This document shows positions 53,343 through 64,000 of a stretch of 64,000 nucleotides of DNA, piece by piece (the first letter of the stretch is position 1; every line of letters starts with the position of its first letter). A model generated the notes under the pieces. That model saw only the letters and a program-made list of their open reading frames with translations. It did not search any database and was not told where the DNA came from. Source of the stretch: Gracilinema caldarium DSM 7334. GTDB taxonomy: Bacteria > Spirochaetota > Spirochaetia > Treponematales > Breznakiellaceae. The stretch spans positions 1,798,001-1,862,000 of the forward strand of contig NC_015732.1 in NCBI RefSeq assembly GCF_000219725.1. The letters are read 5' to 3'. A program made the translations under genes and the position numbers.

Positions 53343-53684
53343 TTATCCTATGGCAGCTGAACCGGTTTCCCCGGTTCTGATTCGGATGCATTCTTCGAGG
53401 GGAAGAATGAAGATCTTTCCATCCCCGATTTCTCCCGTCCTGGCTCCTCGGATTATGGCATCAATGGTCGGCTTTACAAAGCTGTCATTCACCGCAATCT
53501 CAATTCTAACCTTTTTAAGCAGGTTCACTTCGATATCCACACCACGATAGGATTCATGAAAGCCCTTCTGCTGGCCACACCCCATGGCATTGGTGACAGA
53601 GATTTTATAAATCTCAGACCGATATAATTCCTGCTTCACCTCATTGAGCTTATGGGGCTGAATATATGCAATAATCAATTTCAT
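53343..53684 (-). CDS. glnK: P-II nitrogen regulatory protein (GlnK type)
   Basis: The start is ATG 53684 (GGAGG 8 bases upstream, within the end of amtB context). The 113-residue protein has the P-II fold with T-loop [25 protein letters not shown] and [22 protein letters not shown] in the nucleotide site. Aligned with E. coli GlnB, the T-loop position of the uridylylated Tyr51 is Ile, so this P-II cannot be uridylylated there and probably senses ATP/ADP and 2-oxoglutarate. Being next to amtB it most likely gates the transporter. Confidence 0.92.
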
Positions 53685-53698
53685 TTCGTGATCCTCCA

Positions 53699-55018
53699 CT
53701 ACATATTGCTGAAGATCTGGAAGCCCGAATAGGCCTCTGCCTTGTGTTCGGTAATATCAAGGCCCATAAGTTCTTCCTTCTCAGTAACCCGTAGCCCTAC
53801 TACTGCCTTAATTGCCAAGAAGAGCAACAAACTCAAAACACTTGCCCACAGCCCCACGGTAAGTACGCCAAGGGCCTGTACACCGAGTTGATGGAATCCA
53901 CCGCCATGGAGCACACCAACGGCAACTCCGTCCACATTGCCCCAGATACCGACTGCAAGAGTCCCAAAGACTCCGTTTACCATGTGGACCGATACGGCAC
54001 CAACAGGATCGTCAATTTTGAGAACCTTGTCGATAAACTCGACGGAAAGGACCACCAGTAAGCCCGCTAAGAGTCCAATTACCACAGCGGCTCCAGGAGA
54101 TACGACTGCACAAGGTGCAGTAATTGCCACAAGCCCAGCCAATACACCGTTCATGGTCATGGATGCATCGGGCTTTTTGAACCAGAACCAGGAAACTATC
54201 ATAGCAGCGACTGCCCCAGCTGAAGCCGCAAGGGTAGTTGTAACTGCTACGCGGGCTATATCGGTACTAATACCGGATAAGGTCGATCCAGGGTTAAAAC
54301 CATACCAGCCAAACCAGAGGATGAAAACACCCAAAGCAGCCAGTGGTATGTTGTGTCCCGGCAAGGCTTTTACCACAACCTTTCCTTCTGCTTTTACATA
54401 TTTCCCAGTTCTCGGCCCAAGCACAATCGCACCCATGAGGGCTGCCCAACCACCAACTGAATGAACTACGGTTGAACCAGCAAAATCATGGAAACCAAGC
54501 TCAGAGAGCCAGCCCCCTCCCCAAATCCAGTGACCAGACACAGGATAAATGAGGGCAGATATAAAGACGGTATAAATCAAATATGACTTAAACTGGGTCC
54601 GTTCTGCCATAGCTCCTGAAACGATGGTTGCTGCGGTAGCCGCAAAGACAACCTGGAAGAACCAGTCTCGGTAAAAGGTAGGATCTCCCATGGGCCCTTT
54701 AAAAAAGTCAGAAAAACCAATAAGGCCTCCCAGCTTATCAGCCCCATACATGAACCCCCAGCCAATCATCCAGAATGCAATGGAACCTAAGCAAAAGTCC
54801 ATCAGGTTCTTCATGATGATATTGGTGGCATTCTTTGCCCTGGTCAGGCCTGTTTCTACCAGAGCGAAACCTGCCTGCATGAAGAAAACCAGCGCACCGG
54901 TCAGCACCAGCCATATCATATCCATGGCGGCAGTGATGGATTCGATACTTTCTTCTGCGAAACCTGCAACAGTCACCAAGAAGAAAAGCACCGCCAGAAA
55001 CAGCATCTGCTTTTTCAC
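53699..55018 (-). CDS. amtB: Ammonium transporter AmtB
   Basis: The start is GTG 55018 with AGGAGG 8 bases upstream. The 439-residue protein begins with a cleavable leader-like segment ([19 protein letters not shown]) and then has about 11 membrane helices. Amt motifs include [51 protein letters not shown] (the conserved pore His), [17 protein letters not shown], and [17 protein letters not shown] (second pore His). Transcription begins at a sigma-54 promoter and includes glnK, which lies 14 bases downstream. Confidence 0.96.
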
Positions 55019-55246: not shown

Positions 55247-55288
55247 TACATTTTTGTTATTATTAAAATTAATACCTACATATTTGTA
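55247..55288. promoter_or_regulatory. Two operator-like dyads upstream of amtB
   Basis: TACATATTTGTA (55277-55288) is a perfect TACA-N4-TGTA dyad and TACATTTTTGTT (55247-55258) matches with one mismatch; the centres are 30 bases apart, as at glnN. They lie 180-220 bases upstream of the amtB sigma-54 promoter, and the perfect site overlaps the last codons and stop of the NifA-like gene. Confidence 0.55.
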
Positions 55289-56868
55289 GTTCTATACATT
55301 TTCCAGGGGATAGCATAGTGATGCACCCGCAGTCCCATCTGCCGTTCTGTAATACCAAGCCGCCGAGCGGCGGCGGCCATATTACCGCCGGTAATCTTAA
55401 GAGCTTCGATGATAAGTTCCTTTTCTAGTCGCGACAGAGCTGCCTCAAGGGTTGTGGTTGGCTCCGTTTGGGTAGACTGGGCAGACTGGAGGCTTGGGGG
55501 TAAATGATAGGAATGAATTACATTATCGGCAGAAAGAATAACCGCCCGTTCAATACAGTTCTCGAGTTCCCGAACATTGCCAGGCCAATGATAAGTTGTA
55601 AGTAAATCGAGGGCTGGACTAGAGATACGTTTTATCAATTTACCATTCTTGTGGGCATACTTTTCAGCAAAAAAATCAGCCAGAAGGATGATATCGCTTT
55701 TCCGTTCCCGCAGGGGTGGTATATGGATGGGAAAAACATTGAGCCGGTAATAGAGGTCTTCCCTGAATCGGCCTTGTTTAATGTCCTCTTCCAGGTTTCG
55801 ATTGGTTGCCGCAATAAGACGTACATCAATCTTGATGGGCTCGTTTCCCCCAACCCGCTCAATCTCCCGCTCTTGAAGCACCCGAAGCAGTTTTACTTGA
55901 ATTTGTGGGCTTAGATCCCCGATTTCATCCAGGAATATGGTACCACCATTGGCAAGTTCAAATCGGCCTTTTCGCTGGTTGAGAGCCCCAGTAAAGGCAC
56001 CCTTTTCATGACCAAAGAGTTCACTTTCTATAATCGACTCTGGGAGGGCCGCACAGTTTACTTTGATGAAAGCCTGTTTCATTCGTTTCGACTGGCGGTG
56101 AATTTCGGAGGCCACCAATTCCTTACCGGTTCCACTTTCCCCGGTAATCAGCACCGTAGCATCACTGGGGGCTACCTGGGCAACCAGATCAAGAACTGCC
56201 CTGATACCCTTGCTGGTACCAATAATATGCGGCTGGTTATGCGGACCATAGGTTTTTGCATCAACTTTTTCCGATTCTGATGCGTTTTCATGCAGCCGCT
56301 GTAGTGAGATAAGGCGATACTGTTCTTCCTGTATCCGTTCCCGAAGCTTAGCCGAATCGGCGATAATCGATGCTACCGCCTCAAGAATTTTCTGGTCCGA
56401 TTTGAGGAGAGCTTCTGTATAATCAGCTGGAAGCCGACGTTCAGCACTTAAGGTTCCCAGTACCTGATTTCCGCTTTTTATAGGAACACAATAATAGGCA
56501 ACGCCAACAAGATCTTCTTTTTTTCTGCCTCCAGCCCGGTTGAGAAAACGGCTTTCCTTTGAAAGGTCGGGTACTACAATTGGGATTCCAGTCTCAAAGA
56601 CCTTGCCCACGAGGCCCTCACCCATCCGGTATTTGCCCCGTTCTTTTTCTTCTTCGGTTAATCCCGGGGCCTCTTCTATCTTAAGGAGTCCTGTAGCTCG
56701 GTCTAACAGGGTCACCATTCCCCGTGCAAGGGTGGTCCGCATTTCCAATAATGAGAGGAGCGGCCCGAGGGAACTGCGTAATTCCACATGCTTATCCAGG
56801 GTCCTAGTAATATCTAAAAGCAGTAAAAGCTCGTCCCGTTCAGAAAGTAAGCACTTCATGTCATTCAT
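55276..56868 (-). CDS. nifA: NifA-like sigma-54-dependent transcriptional activator
   Basis: The 530-residue protein has a GAF sensor (about 15-175; [22 protein letters not shown]), an AAA+ sigma-54 activator domain (about 210-440) with Walker A GESGTGKE, the GAFTGA loop ([15 protein letters not shown]) and [13 protein letters not shown]-terminal Fis-type HTH follows ([27 protein letters not shown]). GAF-AAA-Fis is the NifA/NorR layout. No NifA-type interdomain cysteine set was recognised. No nif genes are in view, so its proven local targets may be glnN and amtB-glnK. A TACA-N4-TGTA dyad lies 14 bases before ATG 56868, suggesting autoregulation. No clear ribosome-binding site is seen. Confidence 0.85.
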
Positions 56869-57099: not shown

Positions 57100-58788
57100 A
57101 TGAGTGCCTTAATAGCCATCATAGCCCTGGTTATTTATTTTGTGTTCTACTTTGTATATGGTAGAACCATCCAGACCAAGCTCCTGAAAAGTCAGGAAGC
57201 TCCTGATGCTCCGTCCAAACGGCTGCAGGATGGAGTAGATTATGTTCCTACCAACAAGTTTGTTCTATTCGGCCACCATTTCGCGTCCATTGCCGGTGCT
57301 GGCCCGATTACCGGCCCTGCTATGGCTATTGCCTGGGGATGGTTACCGGGACTGCTTTGGATCTGGTTCGGCAACATCTTTATCGGTGCGATCCATGACT
57401 ACCTGTCACTTGCCGCTTCAGTCCGTTACGATGGTCGGTCGGTTCAATTTGTCGCCCAAGACATGGTGGGGAAAAAAGCTGGAAAATCCTTTGGCTGGTT
57501 TGTTCTCTTCCTCTGTATCCTGGTAGTTGCCGCCTTTGGTGACATTGTAGCCGGACAGTTTGCCGCCGATGGCCGGGTGTTCTCAGCTTTCTTCTTCTTC
57601 TGCGTTGCTGCTATTATCGCTGGCTTTATCATGTACAAGTCCCCCCTCGGTATGGGCTGGGGATCTTTAATCGGTGTAGTACTTATCATCGCAGCATTCT
57701 GGGCTGGTGATTTGCTCCCTATAAAGGCTACTAAGGATGTTTGGTTTATCGTAATTTTCGTGTATATTGTCATTGCTTCCGCATTACCAGTTAACTTCCT
57801 CCTGCAACCCCGGGATTACCTTAACAGCTTCCTCCTCTATTTCGGATTGCTCGTAGGTGGTATTGCAGCCCTTGTATCCTTCGGTGCATTTGATTCAGCC
57901 CCCCTCTTTACCAGCTTCTCCGCCAAGGTTATCGGTGGTCAGCCTTCTCCTTTCTGGCCCACGGTACCCCTCGTAATCGCCTGTGGGGCCCTTTCTGGGT
58001 TCCATGCCCTGGTGGCTTCCGGGACAAGCTCCAAACAGATTGCTTCAGAAAAGGATGCCCTCTTTGTTGGATATGGAGCCATGTTAACCGAAGGGTTCCT
58101 TTCTACTATTGTAGTCATTTCCATCGCATCCTTTGGCGACGTTGCCATGGGTAATTGGGAAGCCATATTAAAAACTCCCGCCCTGAGCCGCTTTGTTAAA
58201 GCCTATGGCGCTATGGTCAGTACAACCCTCCCCTTCTTTACCAAGGAATTCATGACCCTCTTTGCTTCTGTTTGGGTCAGTTCCTTTGCTCTTACGACTC
58301 TGGATACCACCAACCGCCTCGGCCGCTATCTGGTACAGGAGATGGCCCTCCCCCTGAAGGATAAGTCCCCCGCTCTCTATGGTATATTAGAAAACAAATG
58401 GGTGGCTTCTATCATTATTGCATTCATCGGTATCTTCCTGGCCCGTTCCGGTGGATACAACACCCTGTGGCCTGCCTTCTCCGGTGCTAATCAGCTCATC
58501 GCTTCCATCGTCATGCTGACCGCTGCGGTCTGGGTAAAGAACAAGCTGAATCCTAAATATACCAATGTGGTGCTTATCCCCGCCATATTCCTCTGGGTTA
58601 CCGTTACAGTGGCCCTGGTCTGGTATGAAATCGTGGTAGTCCCCACATTCTTTGTGAAAATGGAAGACACCATGAAGGTTATTACCGGAAGTGTTGTTGG
58701 AACCATCAACGTAATCATGCTGATTCTTAACTTCGTCATGATTGTCAGCTTCTACAAGAACTTCTCCGGCAAGAAAGCAAACGCTTAA
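57100..58788 (+). CDS. cstA: CstA family carbon starvation/peptide-pyruvate transporter
   Basis: The 562-residue membrane protein has about 14 hydrophobic segments. CstA marks are the N-terminal VYGRTIQTKLL, DGVDYVPTNKFVLFGHHFASIAGAGPITGPAMAIAWGWLPGLLWIWFGNIFIGAIHDY, and ACGALSGFHALVASGTSSKQIASEKDALFVGYGAMLTEGFL. CstA proteins import pyruvate or peptides under carbon limitation. AAGGAGG precedes ATG 57100. It is shorter than E. coli CstA (701). A hairpin and an operon of three small genes including an ArsA-type ATPase follow directly. Confidence 0.93.
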   Translation: MSALIAIIALVIYFVFYFVYGRTIQTKLLKSQEAPDAPSKRLQDGVDYVPTNKFVLFGHHFASIAGAGPITGPAMAIAWGWLPGLLWIWFGNIFIGAIHDYLSLAASVRYDGRSVQFVAQDMVGKKAGKSFGWFVLFLCILVVAAFGDIVAGQFAADGRVFSAFFFFCVAAIIAGFIMYKSPLGMGWGSLIGVVLIIAAFWAGDLLPIKATKDVWFIVIFVYIVIASALPVNFLLQPRDYLNSFLLYFGLLVGGIAALVSFGAFDSAPLFTSFSAKVIGGQPSPFWPTVPLVIACGALSGFHALVASGTSSKQIASEKDALFVGYGAMLTEGFLSTIVVISIASFGDVAMGNWEAILKTPALSRFVKAYGAMVSTTLPFFTKEFMTLFASVWVSSFALTTLDTTNRLGRYLVQEMALPLKDKSPALYGILENKWVASIIIAFIGIFLARSGGYNTLWPAFSGANQLIASIVMLTAAVWVKNKLNPKYTNVVLIPAIFLWVTVTVALVWYEIVVVPTFFVKMEDTMKVITGSVVGTINVIMLILNFVMIVSFYKNFSGKKANA

Positions 58789-58800
58789 TTTCTAATCACC

Positions 58801-58827
58801 GGGCTCCGCCGAATGGCGGAGCCCTTT
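58801..58827 (+). terminator. Hairpin after cstA
   Basis: Perfect arms GGGCTCCGCC and GGCGGAGCCC with a 4-base loop are followed by three T only. The next gene starts 18 bases later, so this is probably a partial terminator that gives cstA more transcript than the genes downstream. Confidence 0.65.
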
Positions 58828-58844
58828 ACAATGCAAAGGAACCT

Positions 58845-59129
58845 ATGACTAAGGAACAGCTAGTACAAAAACTAAAATCTGCCTGGTATATCATTCGTCA
58901 GGTGCACCGTGAAAAAGCCACGGAAATGCTCGAATTCGAAGTGAAGGAACTGCAGAATCTTTTCTCCCTCATAGTACTCGGGAGCCTGGTAGGGCTTCCC
59001 TCTCCGCCTCCAGCGATAGCCTTTGAGCTTATTCCCCTTATGGAGGATGAGATTCGTACCATGACCAGCAGGGCAGACTTTGCCCAGGACCCCCTGGGAG
59101 CCCTTGTAAGCATGCTCAACATTGATTAA
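58845..59129 (+). CDS. Small helical protein between cstA and the ArsA-type ATPase
   Basis: The 94-residue product has an amphipathic N-terminus (KLKSAWYIIRQVHREKATEMLEFEVKELQNLF) and a hydrophobic middle with a Pro cluster (SLIVLGSLVGLPSPPPAIAFELIPLM), then an acidic tail. It could be a short membrane-associated or CstA-binding protein, in the position where proteobacterial cstA has YbdD, though it does not look like YbdD. I do not recognise a family. The ATPase gene starts 15 bases after its stop. Confidence 0.68.
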   Translation: MTKEQLVQKLKSAWYIIRQVHREKATEMLEFEVKELQNLFSLIVLGSLVGLPSPPPAIAFELIPLMEDEIRTMTSRADFAQDPLGALVSMLNID

Positions 59130-59144
59130 TAAGCGGGAACAACT

Positions 59145-60062
59145 ATGAAGAAACTCGCCTTTTTTTTAGGCAAGGGAGGGGTGGGAAAAACTACCCTGTC
59201 CTCTGCTACTGCCTACCGTCTTGCTGCGAGCGGGCTTAAGGTTTTCATTTGCTCCCTTGATCCTGCCCACAACCTGGGTGATGTATTTCATACAAAATTA
59301 TCAAATGAACTGCGTCCGATCAGGGAAAATCTGGAGGGCATGGAAATTGACTTGGCCTCGTGGGTCCAGAAGTATCTTGAGGAAAGCCGCAGCGAAATAC
59401 AGAATGCCTACCGGTACAATGTGGTCATAGATTTAAACAAATACCTGGATATTATGAAATATTCGCCCGGTACAGAGGAATATGCGGTGCTCTGGGCCAT
59501 TGAGTATATTTATAAAACCTATCATGAGACCTATGACATCATCATCTTTGACACCCCTCCCACCGCTTTAACACTGCGCTTTCTGGCCATGCCGGCTATC
59601 TCGAGTCTTTGGGTTAAGGAACTCTCCAATCTGCGTAAAACAATTCTGGAAAAACGGCGGGTTTTACTGAAACTGAATCCAGAAGCGAACGTTCTGGGGG
59701 GCCAGGTTAAAAAGGAAGAGGACCCCATCTACCAAAAACTGGGAGCCATTCACCGGCGCCTTGAATATTTACAGGAGCTTTTTGCAAAGGAAAGTTATAT
59801 TACTGTTGTATTAAATCCCGACGAATTAAGTTTTTCCGAATCTCTGCGTATCAGGGATGAACTGGTCAAGCTGGACGTTCCCATTGCAAGTCTTTGTTAT
59901 AATAAATTTTATATTGATGACAGCCGCGGCGAACGGCTCCGAAACACCTTTAAGAGCGTTCCCATTTTCACCTTTAACCGTCTCGAAGAAGGAATTGTGG
60001 TCCTTGATGATCTTGCCAAATTAGAGGTATCACCACTGGTACATCATATGAGGAGTAATTAA
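59145..60062 (+). CDS. ArsA/GET3-type P-loop ATPase
   Basis: The 305-residue protein has the deviant Walker A FFLGKGGVGKTTLSSATAYRLAA (residues 7-28), switch I SLDPAHNLGDVF and switch II IIIFDTPPTALTLRFLAMP. The central region is mostly helical, as in GET3 and ArsA. There are no ArsA-type arsenite-binding Cys residues (only CSL and CYN are seen) and no ars genes. Most likely it handles a membrane-protein client or energises a transporter such as CstA. The stop overlaps the next start (TAATG). Confidence 0.85.
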   Translation: MKKLAFFLGKGGVGKTTLSSATAYRLAASGLKVFICSLDPAHNLGDVFHTKLSNELRPIRENLEGMEIDLASWVQKYLEESRSEIQNAYRYNVVIDLNKYLDIMKYSPGTEEYAVLWAIEYIYKTYHETYDIIIFDTPPTALTLRFLAMPAISSLWVKELSNLRKTILEKRRVLLKLNPEANVLGGQVKKEEDPIYQKLGAIHRRLEYLQELFAKESYITVVLNPDELSFSESLRIRDELVKLDVPIASLCYNKFYIDDSRGERLRNTFKSVPIFTFNRLEEGIVVLDDLAKLEVSPLVHHMRSN

Positions 60063-60694
60063 TGAACTGGTATATCCTTCCCTTAACACTGCTGGCACTG
60101 TACGCGGTATTTACCTATTTTCGGGGTATGAAGAAGAATAAATGGGTTTCAGGTTTTATTGCCAGTGAAACCGAAGCAATCCTAAAGCCCAAGAATACTG
60201 AATATGTCAATATAGGTGGCGCTATAGGCTATAATTTTACCTACACTCTACAGGAACCCTTTACTACAGCCAAAGGCACCTTTGCCCTTATTCCGCGGCA
60301 GTCTGCTTTTTATATGCCCGTCGTACTGATCCTGGGAGGAAAAGACCGCTACTATCTTACCATTTTTACTTCGAAAAAATTAATTGGAGAAGGACACATT
60401 ATCGAAGCACGGTATTTTAATAAAATATCCAAGACTATTACAGGAATAGAAAAGCTAAAACAGGATCGGATTCAAAAGGGGAAACGAACCTTTGTGTTGC
60501 TTTGGGATGTTCCAAAGCTGGAAGAAAAACTTCACAGGGTGCTCGATGAAGCAGAAGAGTATCAGCTCTTAAAACATTTCTGTGTGTACCGGGACAATTC
60601 CAATTTTTATATTTTTATGGAACCTAAACGGCATGGTATCGAAGCCTTGTTAGGGTCGGTATACAAGAACGTTTCCTTATTCTGGGAAAAATAA
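60062..60694 (+). CDS. Membrane-anchored protein of unknown function
   Basis: One N-terminal membrane helix (YILPLTLLALYAVFTYF) anchors a 190-residue soluble domain of mixed strands and helices (NIGGAIGYNFTYTLQEPFTTAKGTFALIPRQ, YYLTIFTSKKLIGEGHIIEARYFNK, then GKRTFVLLWDVPKLEEKLHRVLDEAEEYQLL). The pattern does not match a family I know. Its start overlaps the ATPase stop, so it is translated with the ATPase and is probably its partner. Confidence 0.7.
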   Translation: MNWYILPLTLLALYAVFTYFRGMKKNKWVSGFIASETEAILKPKNTEYVNIGGAIGYNFTYTLQEPFTTAKGTFALIPRQSAFYMPVVLILGGKDRYYLTIFTSKKLIGEGHIIEARYFNKISKTITGIEKLKQDRIQKGKRTFVLLWDVPKLEEKLHRVLDEAEEYQLLKHFCVYRDNSNFYIFMEPKRHGIEALLGSVYKNVSLFWEK

Positions 60695-60758
60695 CAAAGT
60701 CTTTAGAAGGGCGCTAGTTTAAACTAAGGTTTTTAACGGCGCTTGCGTGCAATAGAGT

Positions 60759-60767
60759 GGGGGGGGG
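60759..60767 (+). repeat. G9 tract in the ribosome-binding site
   Basis: Nine consecutive G end 3 bases before ATG 60771 and act as the Shine-Dalgarno of the MIP18-like gene. Poly-G tracts are known slippage sites in treponemes, so length changes could alter translation. Confidence 0.6.
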
Positions 60768-60770
60768 ACT

Positions 60771-61052
60771 ATGGGTCAGATTACTCAGGAAATGGCAGAT
60801 AAGTTCGAAGCCATCTTAAAGCGGGTTAAGGAACCGGAAACGGAGCTATCGGTTTCGGAATTGAACCTCGTAAAACGCATCAGCTACAGCGAAACCGAGA
60901 AGAAATTTATTATTTATATGGATATTGCAAAGCCCCGCTTTCCCTGTTTAACCTGCGGAGTTGTAACCGAACAAATTCGAAACACCATAGAACGGCGTCT
61001 CCGGGAAGAGTTCATAAAGGAATTTCCCGGTTACGAGGTAGAAACGGTATAA
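60771..61052 (+). CDS. MIP18/DUF59-like small protein
   Basis: The 93-residue protein resembles the MIP18/DUF59 fold that works in iron-sulfur cluster delivery: ILKRVKEPETELSVSELNLVKRISYSETEKKFIIYMDI, then a Cys-containing loop (RFPCLTCGVVTEQIRNTIERRL). The family's usual pattern, DPE-x-SIVDLGLV, appears here as EPETELSVSELNLV, so it is divergent. It lies 76 bases after the membrane-anchored gene and just before tRNA-Arg, so it may be the last gene of the cstA-ATPase unit or stand alone. Confidence 0.65.
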   Translation: MGQITQEMADKFEAILKRVKEPETELSVSELNLVKRISYSETEKKFIIYMDIAKPRFPCLTCGVVTEQIRNTIERRLREEFIKEFPGYEVETV

Positions 61053-61062
61053 GGCTATCTAT

Positions 61063-61136
61063 CGCGACACGAGGGACTCGAACCCCCTACCTGCTGCTTA
61101 GAAGGCAGCTGCTCTATCCAGGTGAGCTAGTGTCGC
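61063..61136 (-). tRNA. tRNA-Arg (anticodon UCU)
   Basis: On the minus strand acceptor GCGACAC/GTGTCGC, anticodon arm GCTGC-CTTCTAA-GCAGC with UCU and T arm GGGGG-TTCGAGT-CCCTC (one G-U) are visible. The discriminator is G; CCA is not encoded. Confidence 0.94.
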
Positions 61137-61195
61137 AAAAACCTGCCTTATTTCACCGAATATTGCCATTCTTGTCAAGGCCATACAAATGGTGC

Positions 61196-62263: not shown

Positions 62264-62719
62264 ATGGCACAGCAGGAAAAACGGCCCTACACCATTGTTC
62301 TTGGGGTTATCGGTTTTGACTGCCATTCGGTGGGCAATAAGATACTGGATGCCTATTTTACCGAACAGGGTTTCAAGGTGATAAATCTGGGAGTCATGGT
62401 AAGCCAGGACGATTTTATTTCAGCGGCCATAGAAAGCGCTGCCGATGCCATTCTCGTTTCGAGCCTCTATGGACATGGCGAAATTGACTGCGATGGACTT
62501 CGGGGGCGCTGTATCGAACGGGGTATCGGCGACATCATCCTCTGGGTGGGAGGCAACCTGGTGGTGGGGAAAAAGGATTTTACTGAAGTAGAGGCAAAAT
62601 TCCGTGCCATGGGTTTTGACCGGGTATTTCCCCCCGACACGGACCTGGACAAGACGGTTCAGGAACTTATTGAGGATATAGAAAAACGGCGGCAGAAAAA
62701 GGCAGAGGAGAAGCACTAA
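62264..62719 (+). CDS. glmS: Glutamate mutase sigma subunit (cobalamin-binding)
   Basis: The 151-residue subunit binds adenosylcobalamin for the glutamate to 3-methylaspartate rearrangement, first step of the methylaspartate fermentation route. The cobalamin motif D-x-H-x2-G reads [14 protein letters not shown] near 18-31; [18 protein letters not shown] and VGGNLVVGK, the other binding loops, are present. RBS GGAGGAACC precedes the ATG, 8 bases after the GntR stop. The catalytic epsilon subunit (GlmE) is not in view; it probably lies just past the window end. Confidence 0.95.
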
Positions 62720-62720
62720 G

Positions 62721-64000
62721 GTGGCCGAGCTTGCCCTTTCCATCGATATAGGATCTACCTGGACCAAGGGAATACTCGTAGATATCCGAGACCAGCGGGT
62801 GGTTCAGCGAGAAGCCACACCAACCACGGTGGAAAATCTTGTTACGGGCTTTAACCGGGTCTATGAGGCCCTAGGGGGCCACAGGGAGAAACCCCAGGTT
62901 TTTGTGTCCTCCAGTGCCAAGGGGGGGCTTACCATTGCGGCCATCGGCCTCGTTCCGGACCTGACCCTTAAGGCCGCAAAAATGGCCGCCGCATCCGCCG
63001 GCGGCAAGGTTATCGCGAGCTTTGCTTACAAGCTAACCCAGACTGATATTGATACCTTAGAGCAGCTTAAGAGCGACATTATCCTCCTAAGCGGCGGCAC
63101 CGACGGCGGAGACGAGACCTATGTGCTCCATAATGCAAGGATGCTCGCCGCATCGTCGGTAGGGTCCTTTATACTGTATGCGGGAAACCAAGCAGTGCGG
63201 GAACCGGTACTGGACATTTTACGCCGCTCCGGCAAAGAGGCCAGTGCCACCGCCAATATATTGCCGGACCTGGATTCGGTTCAGGTAGATGAAGCGCGCA
63301 AGGCTATTGGGGACATTTTTTTAAAACGGATTATCGAAGGCCGGGGACTTTCGGCGGTCCGGGATATATGCAGTGCGGACCCCAGGCCGACCCCCGCGGC
63401 GGTCTATGACCTGGTGGGGCTTTTGGAAGACAACGACGAGGGCCTTCTTGTCCTGGACATGGGGGGAGCCACCACCGACGTCTACACCGTGAGCGATCCC
63501 TATAGCGAGCAAAGCAACCGCATTTTTAGGGGTCTTCCCGAAACCAGGCTGAAACGGACCGTAGAGGGCGATTTGGGCCTTCGGGTGAGCGCCGCCTTTG
63601 TGGCCGAAACCGGATTGTCCTACATTAGGCGATCCCTGGATGAAGGGCGCCAGTCAGCCTTTAAGGCCTGGGTAGATCGGATCCGGGGTAACACGGGGCT
63701 CTTGCCATCCACAGAAGAGGAACAGCAGTTTGATGACATGCTGGCGGTCATCTGTGTGGCCGAATCGATTGCCCGTCATGGGGGCACTTTAACGCCCAGC
63801 TTTACCCCTGAGGGACTTGTCTGGATTCAGCAAGGCAAGGACCTCGGCAGGGTGCACCGCATCATTGGAAGCGGAGGCCGCCTGGCCCAGGAGTCTTCCA
63901 TCAATATAATCCGCACTGCATTGGAAGGATATTTTCCTGCAGAAAAGGATGCAAACCGGCATTCCTGGCCCCAGGTTCAGCGGCTTCTTCCCCATGTTAA
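62721..64000 (+). CDS. glmL: Glutamate mutase reactivation/accessory protein GlmL (partial)
   Basis: The frame opens at GTG 62721, two bases after the glmS stop, and is uninterrupted to the last base, so the C-terminal part is cut off (426 codons seen). It is an ASKHA ATPase of the MutL/GlmL type. Visible marks are LALSIDIGSTWTKGILVD at the start, IILLSGGTDGGDETYV near 120, LVLDMGGATTDVYTVSD near 245, and IGSGGRLAQE near 385. GlmL repairs inactivated B12 in glutamate mutase. It is unrelated to mismatch-repair MutL at 45486. Confidence 0.92.
   Translation, partial: MAELALSIDIGSTWTKGILVDIRDQRVVQREATPTTVENLVTGFNRVYEALGGHREKPQVFVSSSAKGGLTIAAIGLVPDLTLKAAKMAAASAGGKVIASFAYKLTQTDIDTLEQLKSDIILLSGGTDGGDETYVLHNARMLAASSVGSFILYAGNQAVREPVLDILRRSGKEASATANILPDLDSVQVDEARKAIGDIFLKRIIEGRGLSAVRDICSADPRPTPAAVYDLVGLLEDNDEGLLVLDMGGATTDVYTVSDPYSEQSNRIFRGLPETRLKRTVEGDLGLRVSAAFVAETGLSYIRRSLDEGRQSAFKAWVDRIRGNTGLLPSTEEEQQFDDMLAVICVAESIARHGGTLTPSFTPEGLVWIQQGKDLGRVHRIIGSGGRLAQESSINIIRTALEGYFPAEKDANRHSWPQVQRLLPHV

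Follow-up and report, generated by a model that had tools for sequence, protein, structure and literature searches.

The cstA operon of Gracilinema caldarium encodes a GET3-family ATPase and a one-helix membrane protein with a predicted CCDC47-like fold

The window analyzed here is a stretch of 64,000 nucleotides from the spirochete Gracilinema caldarium DSM 7334 (positions 1,798,001–1,862,000 of its genome, a single contig comprising 3,239,340 bases). At positions 57100–61052 it carries five open reading frames, arranged head to tail on the plus strand, which encode a multi-pass transporter of the CstA family (cstA, 57100–58788, 562 amino acids), a helical partner of 94 amino acids (cstX-like, 58845–59129), a single-domain ATPase of the ArsA/GET3 family (59145–60062, 305 amino acids), a protein with an N-terminal membrane helix and a cytosolic domain (cstY, 60062–60694, 210 amino acids), and a DUF59/MIP18-like protein (60771–61052, 93 amino acids). 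The ATG of cstY and the TAA of the ATPase gene overlap by one base. Structure prediction suggests that CstY is probably a homologue of CCDC47, a protein of the PAT complex and of the multipass and SND3 translocons of the endoplasmic reticulum (ER), which serves the assembly of membrane proteins in animals and fungi. The same gene order is also found in Spirochaetota, Acidobacteriota, Bacteroidota, and several archaeal groups, and this recurrence shows that the arrangement is not due to chance. A first-pass annotation of the DNA had described cstA, a 94-residue protein, an ArsA/GET3-type ATPase, and a one-helix anchor in a row, with the anchor start overlapping the ATPase stop; the reading frames and family matches agree with it on these four genes, and the DUF59-like gene, which it left unnamed, is to be added as the fifth.

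The annotation had considered this grouping unfamiliar, but it was already described by Castillo and Saier in 2010 (PMC2963123). Their paper reports 26 arsA–cstA pairings, 24 of them with a CstX of ~90 amino acids, and five archaeal operons with a CstY of ~210 amino acids and one transmembrane segment; the ArsA homologue is a single-domain protein of ~330 amino acids, there is no arsR or other ars gene, the trees agree, and ArsA is proposed to energize CstA through CstX. Set beside this published description, the first four genes of the window match the operon type in size, order, and kind. Unlike in the present analysis, CstY is confined to the five archaea and no fold is given for it, and the words DUF59, iron-sulfur, PaaD, Treponema, Spirochaeta, and YbdD are absent from the text of that paper as far as it was available.

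The window CstY belongs to no Pfam family. An AlphaFold2 model built from a 66-row alignment was obtained with high scores (predicted local distance difference test, pLDDT, 96.2; predicted template modeling score, pTM, 0.89) and shows a long N-terminal helix (residues 5–41) followed by an alpha/beta domain. When the model was compared with 350,542 PDB chains by Foldseek, the top three matches were 7tm3_4 (E 6e-9), 9i78_4 (E 2.5e-8), and 6w6l_7 (E 2.1e-4), all from ER translocon entries, and rank four was TtfA (6t84, E 2.5e-3). Alignment with VIA-align gave Z 17.7 for 7tm3_4, with 209 of the 210 residues superimposed at 3.1 Å and the transmembrane helix included, Z 15.9 for 9i78_4 (207 residues), and Z 11.6 for 6w6l_7 (185 residues); TtfA followed with Z 10.6 (150 residues), and the first unrelated chain had Z 6.5. 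The alignment rows name entries and not molecules, and we take the three translocon chains to be CCDC47 from the entry titles. For 9i78, this reading is also based on the residue ranges, as the chain aligns with CstY over residues 76–368 and the corresponding paper has CCDC47 residues 76–370 docked as one body. Thus, on the predicted model, CstY shares with CCDC47 both the globular fold and the topology, i.e. an N-terminal membrane helix followed by a cytosolic globular domain.

The CCDC47 family PF07946 had turned up among the CstY proteins before the fold search: it matches more of them than any other Pfam family does, although weakly (4 of 66, best E 0.0099). In a comparison of 37 genomes, PF02554 loci were examined with ~1.5 kb of flank, the 30 CstA loci (used also for the CstA tree below) being the best-scoring and not random ones from a sample of 296 Spirochaetota genomes; PF07946 gave three matches with E ≤ 1, two of which were the CstY gene (genomes G396, E 0.021, and G448, E 0.14). 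A sequence search of the PDB with CstY gave no CCDC47 match even at E 10, and the homology therefore rests on the fold and the weak PF07946 matches.

The window CstA matches PF02554 with 429 bits (E 3.2e-128, cut-off 27) and has ~17 hydrophobic stretches. It scores 220 bits against the E. coli CstA equivalog NF011590, far below the cut-off of 1188, and a sequence search of the PDB found no relative of it. To our knowledge, neither an ATPase nor a CstY takes part in the E. coli CstA–YbdD pyruvate importer, which is like the present system in combining a CstA-family transporter with a small partner. E. coli CstA is reported to require YbdD for pyruvate uptake; a partner-dependent CstA is thus ordinary, whereas an ATPase partner is not. 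The cstA–YbdD pairing assumed in the first-pass annotation applies to E. coli, but a profile search for YbdD (PF04328) matched none of the 296 Spirochaetota genomes while the E. coli positive control was matched, and an identity of CstX with YbdD is not shown.

The 94-residue protein corresponds to the CstX of Castillo and Saier and is a distant relative of the cory-CC-star proteins. Its sole family match is NF041419 (E 5.7e-5), at 23.1 bits against an equivalog cut-off of 80; this family is matched by 68 of 73 CstX family members, and the C-terminal CC, a trait we derive from the name cory-CC-star, is present in 0 of 81. The protein is helical, as annotated, but it is not clearly transmembrane (19-residue hydropathy maximum 1.59). 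The AlphaFold2 model of CstX shows two long helices with low confidence (pLDDT 79.9, pTM 0.53).

The ATPase was assigned to the GET3/ArsA/TRC40 subfamily, with scores of 175 bits for PF02374 (cut-off 24.3) and 184 bits for TIGR00345 (cut-off 135). The deviant Walker A motif GKGGVGKTT and the switch motifs DPAHN and DTPPT are invariant in the family alignment, and the window protein aligns with the archaeal Get3 structure 3ug6 (E 3.6e-33) through the helical subdomain. It is thus like GET3/TRC40 and archaeal Get3 in its motifs and single domain, and differs from them in being operon-bound to cstA and in its cysteines: C36 and C251 are the only ones, so that the CxxC zinc motif, a feature of GET3 of the eukaryotic type, is absent. 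No other clear family member is present in the genome. The arsenite pump ArsA was rejected as an identity because of the single 305-residue domain, a TIGR04291 score of 93 bits against a cut-off of 650, the few cysteines, and the neighbors, among which, as far as they were scanned in the window, there was no ars gene, as the first-pass annotation had stated.

The fifth protein falls narrowly below the PF01883 cut-off (22.5 vs 23.5 bits). A profile of 44 DUF59-like sequences matched the solved DUF59 proteins 5ird (3.3e-5) and 3lno (3.5e-5), as well as 1uwd, and PF01883 at E up to 0.1 matched 30 of the 44 relatives (best 1.7e-7). Cys59 is present in 42 of the 44, and the Thermococcus protein (L094:8782-9252) lacks the cysteine common to most relatives. 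Of the 71 loci that extend 1.5 kb or more downstream, 51 contain the gene by profile (tblastn, which missed divergent copies, found it in 44 of 71), and in one Archaeoglobus it lies between the ATPase and CstY genes with touching stops and starts. The DUF59-like gene is thus a regular member of most operons, archaeal ones included. A run of nine G residues (60759–60767, plus strand), the sole G or C run of at least eight in the window, lies immediately 5' of its start codon and is a possible slippage site; at this point, an ordinary ribosome-binding site of the AGGAGG type is present in three near relatives.

To determine the linkage of the genes, 84,980 species genomes were scanned for the ATPase; the best 80 of 516 confirmed relatives were kept and, with L042, 81 loci were examined. 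Since these counts lean to close ATPases, the 296 Spirochaetota genomes served as a less biased control. CstX was found in 81 of 81 loci by tblastn and in 80 by profile, and both cstA and cstX were present in 52 of 52 ATPase loci with at least 3.5 kb of upstream sequence. CstY was found in 62 of 71 loci with at least 1.5 kb downstream. In seven of the nine loci devoid of CstY, and in L095, there is a membrane protein of 144–161 amino acids (one cluster), and the preceding cstA is ~33% identical to that of the window wherever visible (L113 is cut upstream). This protein lies between the divergent cstA type and cstX, instead of CstY, at L095:7247-7705, L097:1300-1755, L101:7107-7589, L102:7221-7682, L104:7207-7671, L120:7191-7670, and L124:6532-6963.

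In the Spirochaetota sample the ATPase profile matched 17 genomes, six with double-domain ArsA and 11 with single-domain ATPases, all 11 of which adjoin cstA. An ATPase and anchor found mostly without cstA, the pattern that would have spoken against the grouping, was not seen, because all ATPase loci with enough upstream sequence have cstA; the converse, cstA without the ATPase, applies to most cstA genes of spirochetes. CstY is present in 16 of the 296 genomes and in eight of them forms an operon with cstX and the ATPase gene. Two genomes (G191 and G198) have CstY divergent from cstA with neither ATPase nor CstX nearby, and in six CstY does not adjoin cstA (the G161 case is a fragment, and G239 has a cstA–cstX–ATPase operon elsewhere). 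Since CstY occurs beside a cstA devoid of the ATPase or away from cstA, it is more than an anchor of the ATPase. Four of the six cstA-distant copies, all from one spirochete genus, lie between folK and mcsA–mcsB–clpC (names assigned by eye); relatives in this setting are L204:7713-8330, L205:8168-8788, L206:7998-8636, and L207:8116-8739. Among 115 genomes of the class to which the Thermococcus genome G443 belongs, 84 carry a single CstY gene, and the best 20 CstY loci of that class all contain CstX, the ATPase, and the DUF59-like gene. CstY is thus common in spirochetes and more widespread than the five archaea reported in 2010.

In a maximum-likelihood tree, the linked ATPases formed a clade of 47 rows (support 100/99), separated from double-domain ArsA and from two Get3-like proteins of Archaeoglobus. 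Of the rows labeled 'other' in this tree, four are CstA-linked, as recognized by identity (L252 with L107, L250 and L251 with L122 and L125) or by neighbors (L253). Next to cstA and a divergent CstX, genome G317 has a pair of neighboring single-domain ATPases (L187:6029-8137), and as this CstA-linked pair branches outside the main clade, the linked ATPases do not form one strict clade. In the CstA tree, 24 linked CstA proteins formed a clade without unlinked members (100/100), and a second clade mixed linked and unlinked ones; linked L171 was left out, its gene being entered via L184, and L162 and L166 are duplicates of L182 and L183, respectively. In both trees, the Acidobacteriota locus L091 nests among spirochetes, joined by L092 in the ATPase tree, and L106, from Bacteroidota, groups with the spirochete L105, suggesting two apparent transfers across phyla in which the gene set moved together; as these loci are from metagenome bins, binning error is possible. 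CstA, CstX, ATPase, and CstY have correlated pairwise distances (r 0.89–0.94, 58 loci), also within 40 close loci (r 0.74–0.86; 0 of 2000 permutations), and shared species history adds to this correlation.

Divergent from cstA lies the gene of a NifA-like sigma-54 activator (55276–56868, minus strand; TIGR01817 535 bits, cut-off 528.85), which adjoins cstA in 5 of 80 loci and is a possible regulator of the operon, not a core part of it. A sigma-54 promoter for this divergent regulator was rejected, as the best site scored 8 of 11, like 123 sites on one strand of the window, and is thus frequent by chance. Past the activator are AmtB-like (53699–55018) and PII-like (53343–53699) genes and then a glutamine synthetase-like gene, all three named by eye. 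Downstream of the operon are a tRNA-Arg (tct) at 61062–61137 and, at 62264–63998, genes for a GntR-type regulator and methylaspartate (glutamate) mutase subunit S, followed by a gene cut off by the window end.

The presence of a CCDC47-like protein beside a single multi-pass transporter and an ATPase of the GET3 type suggests a factor that assembles or stabilizes this transporter. We therefore tentatively favor a module dedicated to the assembly or stabilization of CstA over direct ATP-driven transport, with a probability of roughly 45%. Since the ATPase is always beside cstA (11 of 11 and 52 of 52 loci), the suggestion of the first-pass annotation that it may energize or assemble CstA stands, and the predicted anchor fold tilts the choice to assembly. 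From the gene order, co-inheritance, ATPase family, and predicted CstY fold we infer the following interactions, ATPase cycle, and assembly role. CstY would be anchored by its N-terminal helix with the globular domain at the cytosolic face beside a multi-pass partner, as in CCDC47; CstX, helical and probably amphipathic, would connect CstY and CstA with the ATPase; the latter, a GET3-like homodimer, would in one nucleotide state bind CstX, partly folded CstA, or both, and release what it has bound after hydrolysis; and the DUF59-like protein may be an accessory of the ATPase.

Several observations weigh against this assembly role. CstY and CCDC47 are only 4–10% identical, the best PF07946 bit score shown for CstY is 15.1 against a cut-off of 27.7, and, since the window CstY itself has no match to this family, we call it CCDC47-like and not a member. 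Unlike CCDC47, CstY stops after the globular domain and thus has no C-terminal latch helices. No Asterix-like partner was recognized either: no Asterix chain was found for the low-confidence CstX model among 45 aligned PDB chains, the best of which (Z 6.6) were type III secretion and other helical chains, and we do not claim that CstX is an Asterix. A shared fold alone shows no function, and the related fold of TtfA also fits a transport-accessory role. Finally, a dedicated chaperone for a single transporter is unusual, and most spirochete CstA proteins manage without the ATPase module.

The strongest rival, which we consider doubtful, is that the ATPase energizes or gates transport, hydrolysis by an ArsA-like dimer being coupled through CstX (and CstY) to CstA, so that a secondary transporter would become an ATP-assisted pump. 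This is the published proposal (PMC2963123), and the agreeing trees reported there are matched by the correlated distances found here. TtfA is described as an accessory of the transporter MmpL3; because TtfA shares the predicted CstY fold distantly and belongs with a transporter, albeit one of a different family, coupled or gated transport keeps its standing. However, CCDC47 is a far closer fold match than TtfA, E. coli CstA is reported to take up pyruvate with no partner other than YbdD, and 152 of the 163 Spirochaetota genomes with CstA (of 296) lack a linked ATPase.

A role in metal or Fe–S maturation, with the ATPase and the DUF59-like protein as an Mrp/NUBPL-like pair loading a cofactor into CstA or a partner, appears improbable: the frequency of the DUF59-like gene, its position next to the ATPase gene in Archaeoglobus, and the conserved Cys59 would fit, but the Thermococcus copy lacks this cysteine, the gene was not found in 20 of 71 loci, the ATPase is of the ArsA/GET3 and not the Mrp type, and CstA has no known cofactor. 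Least probable is a general GET-like route in which CstY would receive clients, tail-anchored or not, from the ATPase, cstA being just one of them, since the client delivery raised in the first-pass annotation gains nothing beyond the kinship of the ATPase and the six of 16 genomes with CstY away from cstA, whereas no single-domain ATPase lies away from cstA in the samples counted, and that of the window lacks CxxC.

The CCDC47 and PAT literature drawn on comprises PMC9630114, PMC12572126, PMC13261788, PMC11186639, and PMC7505659. A 2022 Nature paper states that prokaryotes lack PAT components. A 2026 review describes how CCDC47 keeps Sec61 from opening and guides nascent multi-pass proteins, while Asterix chaperones their transmembrane helices; it finds no obvious bacterial homologue of PAT and regards the bacterial shielding of weakly hydrophobic transmembrane helices as largely uncharacterized. 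Among the open-access titles listed, none concerned a prokaryotic CCDC47, and no paper linking TtfA with CCDC47 was found. The grouping has been known since 2010; within the literature searched, the fifth gene, the bacterial spread of CstY, and most notably the CCDC47-like fold seem to be new.

It is possible, though we hold it with considerable reserve, that CstY is a CCDC47 homologue of bacteria and archaea and acts as a client-dedicated intramembrane chaperone, together with an ATPase of the GET3 family and a small partner of helical structure, and that the CCDC47 half of PAT comes from, or shares an ancestor with, a prokaryotic transporter-assembly factor. If true, this would contradict the current statement that PAT components are missing from prokaryotes. 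The compact operon, with one natural candidate client and present in the genetically tractable Thermococcus, would allow tests of where the CCDC47 fold comes from and what its basic task is, and it would resolve the question, open since 2010, of why an ATPase of the ArsA/GET3 family accompanies a carbon-starvation transporter.

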